A stretch of DNA of 64,000 bases from assembly GCA_947502835.1 (NCBI GenBank), contig CANNBJ010000002.1, forward strand, positions 124,001 to 188,000, given 5' to 3'. The stretch comes from Bdellovibrionales bacterium (GTDB lineage: Bacteria > Bdellovibrionota > UBA1018 > CAIMNF01). The number at the start of each line of letters is the position of its first letter. Position 1 is the stretch's first letter. Under the pieces are notes generated by a model. The model worked only from the letters and a program-made list of their open reading frames with translations, made no database searches and was not told the origin of the DNA. The translations under genes and the position numbers were made by a program. Of this stretch, positions 32,355-33,629 are shown piece by piece.

Positions 32355-32519
32355 GGGACCAAACCTTCCTCATTCAATGAATCTCACTGTATACTTTTGT
32401 GCACACCTGCCTGTGAACGAGAGTAGACAGAGACACATGCGTCAGATAAGCCGAACGCTAGCTCGATTTTAACTGTTTGTAATCTATGTGTTTTTATTGC
32501 GCACCCTCCTGGGAACAAG

Positions 32520-32535
32520 TGGCACGAGGGTTGCA
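32520..32535 (+). promoter_or_regulatory. Near-perfect sigma-54 promoter upstream of lpxC
   Basis: TGGCACGAGGGTTGCA matches the RpoN consensus TGGCACG-N4-TTGCA at every fixed position, with 10 nt between the GG and GC dinucleotides. The predicted start point is near 32546, 18 nt before the lpxC ATG. The remaining 165 bp of the gap after the O-methyltransferase gene has AT-rich segments and no gene; no enhancer palindrome was identified. Confidence 0.8.
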
Positions 32536-32563
32536 TTAAACTGGTTGAGGGACAATTTCATCC

Positions 32564-33523
32564 ATGTTCAGGCGTTTTGACCCAAAATCACACCACCAGG
32601 TCACAATTCGGCGCGAAGCTCGAATTGAGGGGGTCGGTTTGCATTCTGGAAAAACCGCATCCATCACACTGAAGCCCGCCCTTCCGAATACAGGAATCAT
32701 TTTTGTTCGTCGAGATCTGGAGAAACCTGTCGCGATTCCTGCAACCTTCGAGTTTGTGACTCAAACCCGTCTTGCGACCACACTTGGCCGCGGAGATGTG
32801 ACCATTTCAACTGTGGAACATCTTCTTTCTGCGTTCAGACTTCTTGGAGTCGACAACGCGCTGGTGGAAGTGGATGGCCCTGAAGTTCCGATCATGGACG
32901 GCTCCGCCTCAAAATTCTGTGATGCCATTCTTTCAGCCGGATTTTTTGATCAGTCCGTCCCTCGGAAAGTTGCGGCCGTGAAGAAGCGCATCGAAGTACG
33001 CAAAGGCGACAAAGTCGCCCTGATCGAGCCCTCGAATCGACTTCAGATCAAGGCGCGGATTGAATGGTCCCATCCCGCAATCGGTGTGCAAGAGCTCTCC
33101 TACACCCTTGGAAAATCGGACTTTCAAGAAATTTCAAAAGCTCGAACCTTTGGCTTCCTGAAGGATGTCGAAGCCCTCAAGAAAGCGGGCTTGGTTCAGG
33201 GTGGCTCCTATGAAAATGCAATCGTTCTCGATGACTCCCGCGTGGTGAACCCCGAAGGGCTCCGCTACGAGGACGAATTCGTTCGCCACAAGGTACTGGA
33301 TGCGATCGGCGACTTCGCTCTTTCCCCAATCCCCATTGTGGGCAATGTCACCCTCGTCAAGGCAGGGCATGAGATTCACGCTGAACTGGTTCAGTCGATT
33401 TTCTCAAATCCCGAGAACTACGAGGTTAAAACCCTTGACGAGATTGAGGCTCCATTGGATTCTCCCTTTGCAGTTGGCCAGCGGATCATGAAACCCGCTA
33501 GGGTCCTGCAGGGCTCCTTTTAG
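32564..33523 (+). CDS. lpxC: UDP-3-O-acyl-N-acetylglucosamine deacetylase
   Basis: The 319-residue zinc enzyme catalyses the committed step of lipid A synthesis. Zinc ligands are visible as His in STVEHLLSAF (about residue 86) and HKVLDAIGDFAL (His and Asp, about 245), and the catalytic His lies in KAGHEIHAELV. EGVGLHSGKTA is the N-terminal signature. It stands alone between a sigma-54 promoter and tRNA-Pro, away from its usual fts/mur context, so lipid A synthesis may be under growth-phase or regulator control here. Confidence 0.97.
   Translation: MFRRFDPKSHHQVTIRREARIEGVGLHSGKTASITLKPALPNTGIIFVRRDLEKPVAIPATFEFVTQTRLATTLGRGDVTISTVEHLLSAFRLLGVDNALVEVDGPEVPIMDGSASKFCDAILSAGFFDQSVPRKVAAVKKRIEVRKGDKVALIEPSNRLQIKARIEWSHPAIGVQELSYTLGKSDFQEISKARTFGFLKDVEALKKAGLVQGGSYENAIVLDDSRVVNPEGLRYEDEFVRHKVLDAIGDFALSPIPIVGNVTLVKAGHEIHAELVQSIFSNPENYEVKTLDEIEAPLDSPFAVGQRIMKPARVLQGSF

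Positions 33524-33551: not shown

Positions 33552-33629
<78 letters not shown>

Follow-up and report, generated by a model that had tools for sequence, protein, structure and literature searches.

A conserved sigma-54 promoter and putative tandem-dyad enhancer upstream of lpxC, with an NtrYX-like pair as probable activator

The lpxC locus and its upstream region

The analyzed window is a stretch of 64,000 nucleotides from the 2.73 Mb draft genome of a Bdellovibrionales bacterium. It contains lpxC, assigned to its family by PF03331 (336 bits) as well as TIGR00325 (326 bits; cut-off 187). LpxC catalyzes the committed step in the synthesis of lipid A of the outer membrane and the gene is normally essential; its control is best known as FtsH-type proteolysis in enterobacteria. 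The gene is preceded by an intergenic gap of 209 bp (32355-32563), and the features recognized in the gap and behind it are as follows.

32388-32405, no strand assigned: putative enhancer dyad A, TGTATACTTTTGTGCACA (genus alignment; TGT-N12-ACA in 48/49 loci)
32412-32429, no strand assigned: putative enhancer dyad B, TGTGAACGAGAGTAGACA (same basis as dyad A)
32470-32479, plus strand: YAA-N4-TTG, a possible IHF-like site in the stretch that separates enhancer and promoter (block conserved across the genus)
32520-32535, plus strand: sigma-54 promoter core, TGGCACGAGGGTTGCA, with -24 element TGGCACG and -12 element TTGCA (12/12 consensus match, conserved in 49/49 loci)
32546-32563, plus strand: predicted transcription start (about 32546) and 18-nt leader, placed by the usual spacing of sigma-54 promoters
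32548-32552, plus strand: GAGGG, a ribosome-binding-like sequence within the predicted leader
32564-33523, plus strand: lpxC, UDP-3-O-acyl-N-acetylglucosamine deacetylase, 319 aa (Pfam PF03331, NCBIfam TIGR00325)

A tRNA-Pro(GGG) gene (33552-33629) begins 28 bp past the lpxC stop codon on the same strand, a position kept in 7 of the 11 loci of the genus, and it may be co-transcribed with lpxC from the sigma-54 promoter.

A sigma-54 promoter core in front of lpxC

The 16-mer at 32520-32535 agrees with the pattern TGGCACG-N4-TTGCW at every scored position, with GG at -24, GC at -12 and the fixed spacing between them, and 28 nt separate its end from the lpxC ATG at 32564. The first-pass annotation had described a near-perfect sigma-54 promoter at this place; its coordinates and spacing were confirmed, and the match is fuller than had been claimed. 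The gene rpoN, whose absence would have counted against the promoter, is encoded in the genome (PF04552, 219 bits), together with about 11 complete sigma-54 activator proteins (enhancer-binding proteins, EBPs). In genome-wide scans, restricted to exact patterns, the full pattern occurs twice and the looser TGGCAY-N5-TTGCW 15 times, compared to none for the reversed control in either case.

The genes behind several other sigma-54-like sites look envelope-related when judged by eye, without family search, their products including predicted lipoproteins, an outer-membrane protein, a secretin-like protein, a GspC-like protein and an EBP. The EBP gene L142 has the site TGGCATGCGGATTGCT immediately in front of it (L166/L178, G000:C4:403701), which suggests that expression of this EBP gene is itself sigma-54-dependent.

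When one mismatch is allowed, 0.49 matches to the pattern are expected by chance in the window, so that a match of this kind is unremarkable by itself, and a functionless chance sequence has to be weighed as an explanation. We therefore rely on conservation. A search for LpxC covered 58 genomes, and the upstream DNA was read at 49 loci (the present one included) that range from the same genus to the same class and span eight families (f1-f8). To count as a core, a sequence lying from -110 to +30 relative to the expected lpxC start had to agree at 9 or more of the 12 positions and to keep both GG and TTGC. Such a core was found at all 49 loci, as compared to 21 of 2183 equal-size control windows from the same loci (1%), and the windows under test gave none on their reverse strand. 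Conservation of the -24/-12 element upstream of lpxC orthologues, which the first-pass annotation had named as a check, is thus borne out. The N4 spacer of the core varies among these loci while the core itself is kept, and an upstream enhancer is conserved as well (see below); the difference from the control windows contradicts a chance match, which we regard as extremely improbable.

Among the 40 lpxC loci read in a phylum-wide sample, the core was also present in f10 (5/5), f11 (2/2), f18 (1/1) and f19 (1/1), and it was not found at lpxC in f9, f13, f14, f15, f17 and f20-f24. Two of the latter, with counts of 0/8 in f15 and 0/6 in f13, bear on the suggestion of the first-pass annotation that the promoter belongs with development or predatory growth phases. 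The LpxC of f15 reaches 89.5% identity with the protein of a record named Bacteriovoracaceae, for which reason we call this family Bacteriovoracaceae-like and take the phylum to be probably Bdellovibrionota; f13 is probably Bdellovibrionaceae (Bdellovibrio). Since the promoter was not found in these two families, and is common to all sampled families of the class plus f10, f11, f18 and f19, the link to predation or development is unsupported. The literature searched on Bdellovibrio rpoN or EBPs with a promoter yielded nothing.

Outside the phylum-wide sample, both core and dyad were found upstream of lpxC in two records named deltaproteobacterial (L036 and L086). Three Myxococcaceae lpxC loci (L034, L035 and L038) have sigma-54-like cores upstream, at 10-12 of 12 positions depending on the scoring, and show no TGT-N12-ACA dyads there; possibly lpxC is under separate EBP control in Myxococcaceae. 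No LpxC match was obtained in three genomes (G006, G013, G032) nor in any of the four sampled f16 genomes (G065, G071, G077, G082), and most of the genomes without a match are listed as at least 90% complete. Family f16 may be without lipid A synthesis or may have a very divergent LpxC.

A putative tandem-dyad enhancer

A second conserved block, which the first-pass annotation had missed, stands out in the genus alignment about 90-130 bp ahead of the -24 element. It spans 32388-32429 and consists of two dyads in tandem, each 18 bp long and of the form TGTNNAC-N4-GTNNACA. Of the 49 loci, 48 have one or more TGT-N12-ACA, compared to 3.4 expected in shuffled sequence, and 32 have two or more (0.17 in shuffled sequence). 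The strict form occurs in the 2.73 Mb of the present genome only as dyads A and B, a uniqueness stated for the strict form, whose consensus was derived from these same 49 loci. This confinement to lpxC would be in keeping with a single-target activator. Within the genus the starts of the two dyads are separated by 23-25 bp; at the other loci the distance is mostly 34-35 bp, a difference of about one helical turn, which fits two dimers facing the same side of the DNA. RNA structure across the element is nothing special (z = -1.2), and the dyads are therefore better read as DNA sites. The pair resembles an EBP enhancer of the classical kind that serves a single target. The upstream enhancer expected of a sigma-54-dependent promoter would be represented here by conserved dyad sequence.

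The possible IHF-like site between enhancer and promoter is suggestive only. Its score over the 49 loci (mean 7.4 of 9) is slightly above that of shuffled sequence (7.0), a weak signal, and HU/IHF-family proteins are encoded in the genome.

Another explanation of the region is that lpxC, being usually essential, is transcribed mainly by housekeeping means, either through read-through from the genes upstream or by use of a sigma-70 promoter located within the gap, with sigma-54 providing a conditional boost. The largest upstream frame is co-directional with lpxC in 36 of the 49 loci, including the present one, and a terminator search in the gap found none, so that basal read-through into lpxC is possible. 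On the other hand, in the remaining 13 loci the largest upstream frame is opposite to lpxC and the sigma-54 core is present nonetheless. A TATACT hexamer in the gap (32390-32395) could be taken for part of a housekeeping promoter, but it falls within enhancer dyad A, and a sigma-70 scan of the plus strand of the gap gave no site. We consider a mainly housekeeping transcription of lpxC possible but doubtful. Control of lpxC by an EBP, as read from the sequence, is strongly supported because the sigma-54 core and the tandem-dyad enhancer are both conserved.

A candidate activator

One of the EBPs encoded in the present genome (L134; C5:190207-191610) has receiver, AAA+ and Fis-type HTH domains and the GAFTGA motif, and its gene is overlapped by that of its kinase. 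The best-scoring NCBIfam model for this EBP is NtrX, at 504 bits and thus below the equivalog cut-off of 600 bits, while the NtrY_N region of the kinase (PF19312) scores 25.2 bits, above the cut-off of 23.2. On these grounds we call the pair NtrYX-like. The kinase at locus L259 has 19.0 bits for NtrY_N, which is below the same cut-off.

Genes for a membrane histidine kinase and an EBP come next after lpxC, in the same orientation, in families f11, f18 and f14. At L259 the order is ruvC, ruvA, ruvB, lpxC, kinase and EBP, then genes resembling ispG and proS; lpxC-kinase-EBP is also the order in Deltaproteobacteria bacterium IMCC39146 (L036). In a Desulfobacteraceae record (L102), the gene behind lpxC encodes a related kinase. 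EBPs were compared reciprocally with one promoter-bearing genome each from f10, f11 and f18. The lpxC-linked EBP of f11 and of f18 is the best match to the NtrX-like EBP, and a reciprocal best hit for the genomes compared. Only L134 and two further EBPs, L137 and L138, have reciprocal best hits in all three genomes, and among these only L134 was seen linked to lpxC.

The promoter and enhancer could nevertheless be real and serve a different EBP, namely L137, L138 or L135. The first two share with L134 the reciprocal best hits in f10, f11 and f18, but no linkage of either to lpxC was seen; by eye, no receiver domain was seen in them. L135 is the partner of a CHASE2-type kinase, and genome G055 has such a kinase together with an L135-type EBP at about 3 kb behind lpxC (L252:3178-6619), the NtrX-like pair of that genome being located elsewhere, away from lpxC. 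Against L135, EBPs of its type occur all over the phylum, also in f13 and f15, where the promoter was not found, and neither the f11 nor the f18 genome has a reciprocal best hit for it; the L135-type EBP was set aside for its phylum-wide occurrence. Activation by one of these three EBPs appears rather unlikely.

The distribution of the NtrX-like pair and that of the promoter do not coincide throughout. The pair is present in f13 and f17, both without the lpxC promoter; no match to it above the cut-off used was found in f15; and in f14 lpxC is linked to kinase and EBP while a sigma-54 core was not detectable. No difference in the recognition helix was seen between promoter-positive and promoter-negative lineages. 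On balance, the NtrX-like EBP is the probable activator of lpxC in this genome.

Comparison with known systems

In Desulfovibrio vulgaris Hildenborough the sigma-54-dependent response regulator DVU2934 acts on one target only, lpxC (DVU2917); in Syntrophobacter the operon orthologous to that of DVU2934 directly follows lpxC (PMC3333781). Within the sigma-54 regulome, DVU2934 and lpxC have been listed as the part concerned with lipid A (PMC4641369). The present system resembles the first in having, as probable activator, a sigma-54-dependent response regulator with GAFTGA, for which lpxC may be the only target, and resembles the second in that lpxC adjoins a kinase-EBP pair in f11, f14, f18 and IMCC39146. 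Unlike the arrangement here, the DVU2934 operon also encodes an HD-GYP regulator. Outside close Desulfovibrio relatives the DVU2934 motif was not found in front of lpxC, whereas the present promoter and enhancer are conserved across a class and four more families.

Alphaproteobacterial NtrYX lowers the lpxC transcript, apparently indirectly and as part of a wide regulon (PMC7240162, PMC12444477), and a review of 2025 names NtrYX and ChvGI as transcriptional regulators of lpxC in this group, the regulons of both being too broad for specificity (PMC12444477). The pair described here is comparable in that its kinase has an NtrY-like N-terminal region and its regulator is closest to NtrX, although the EBP scores below the equivalog cut-off. 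There is no NtrX site upstream of lpxC in the alphaproteobacterial case; the NtrYX-like pair described here would act positively, via sigma-54 and apparently on one target, where the alphaproteobacterial system lowers the transcript.

The layout of a -24/-12 core with paired EBP dyads about 100 bp upstream is that of NtrC-type sigma-54 promoters (PMC4641369), which differ in that their targets belong to conditional pathways and not to the committed, normally essential step of lipid A synthesis. In the literature searched, the only direct precedent was the Desulfovibrio work. Given this precedent, control of lpxC by a sigma-54 EBP belongs to a known kind. New is the breadth of its conservation, which takes in a class and four more families, the earlier report having concerned one sulfate reducer and not a whole lineage. 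The enhancer of tandem dyads, which is nearly unique within the genome, and the connection with an NtrYX-like pair are likewise new.

Proposed mechanism and significance

We consider it likely that lpxC is driven by the sigma-54 promoter through an EBP bound at the tandem dyads, with the NtrYX-like pair as activator. The kinase would sense an envelope or metabolic cue, a signal that we infer, and phosphorylate the EBP, which would then assemble on the two dyads at 32388-32429. Looping or bending of the DNA between enhancer and promoter would bring the EBP into contact with the polymerase, and ATP hydrolysis by the EBP would open the polymerase-sigma-54 complex at 32520-32535, so that transcription of lpxC would start near 32546. 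Use of this start, as well as the role of the NtrX-like EBP as activator here, is inferred.

The first-pass annotation had proposed that lipid A synthesis is switched by an EBP. Control by an EBP agrees with the conserved core and dyads, but "switched" says more than the evidence does: it would fit equally well if a highly expressed lpxC were fine-tuned, which is what has been proposed for Desulfovibrio (PMC3333781).

A more far-reaching possibility, which we offer tentatively and hold to be doubtful, is that lpxC has no other effective promoter in this class, that RpoN and one NtrYX-like system are consequently essential and form a single-target rheostat of lipid A that replaces FtsH-type proteolysis, and that the module is ancestral in several deltaproteobacterial lineages, the DVU2934 case included.

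If the proposed control of lpxC is true, a normally essential envelope gene stands under an otherwise optional sigma factor, and a little-understood NtrYX-like pair gains a concrete, testable output.
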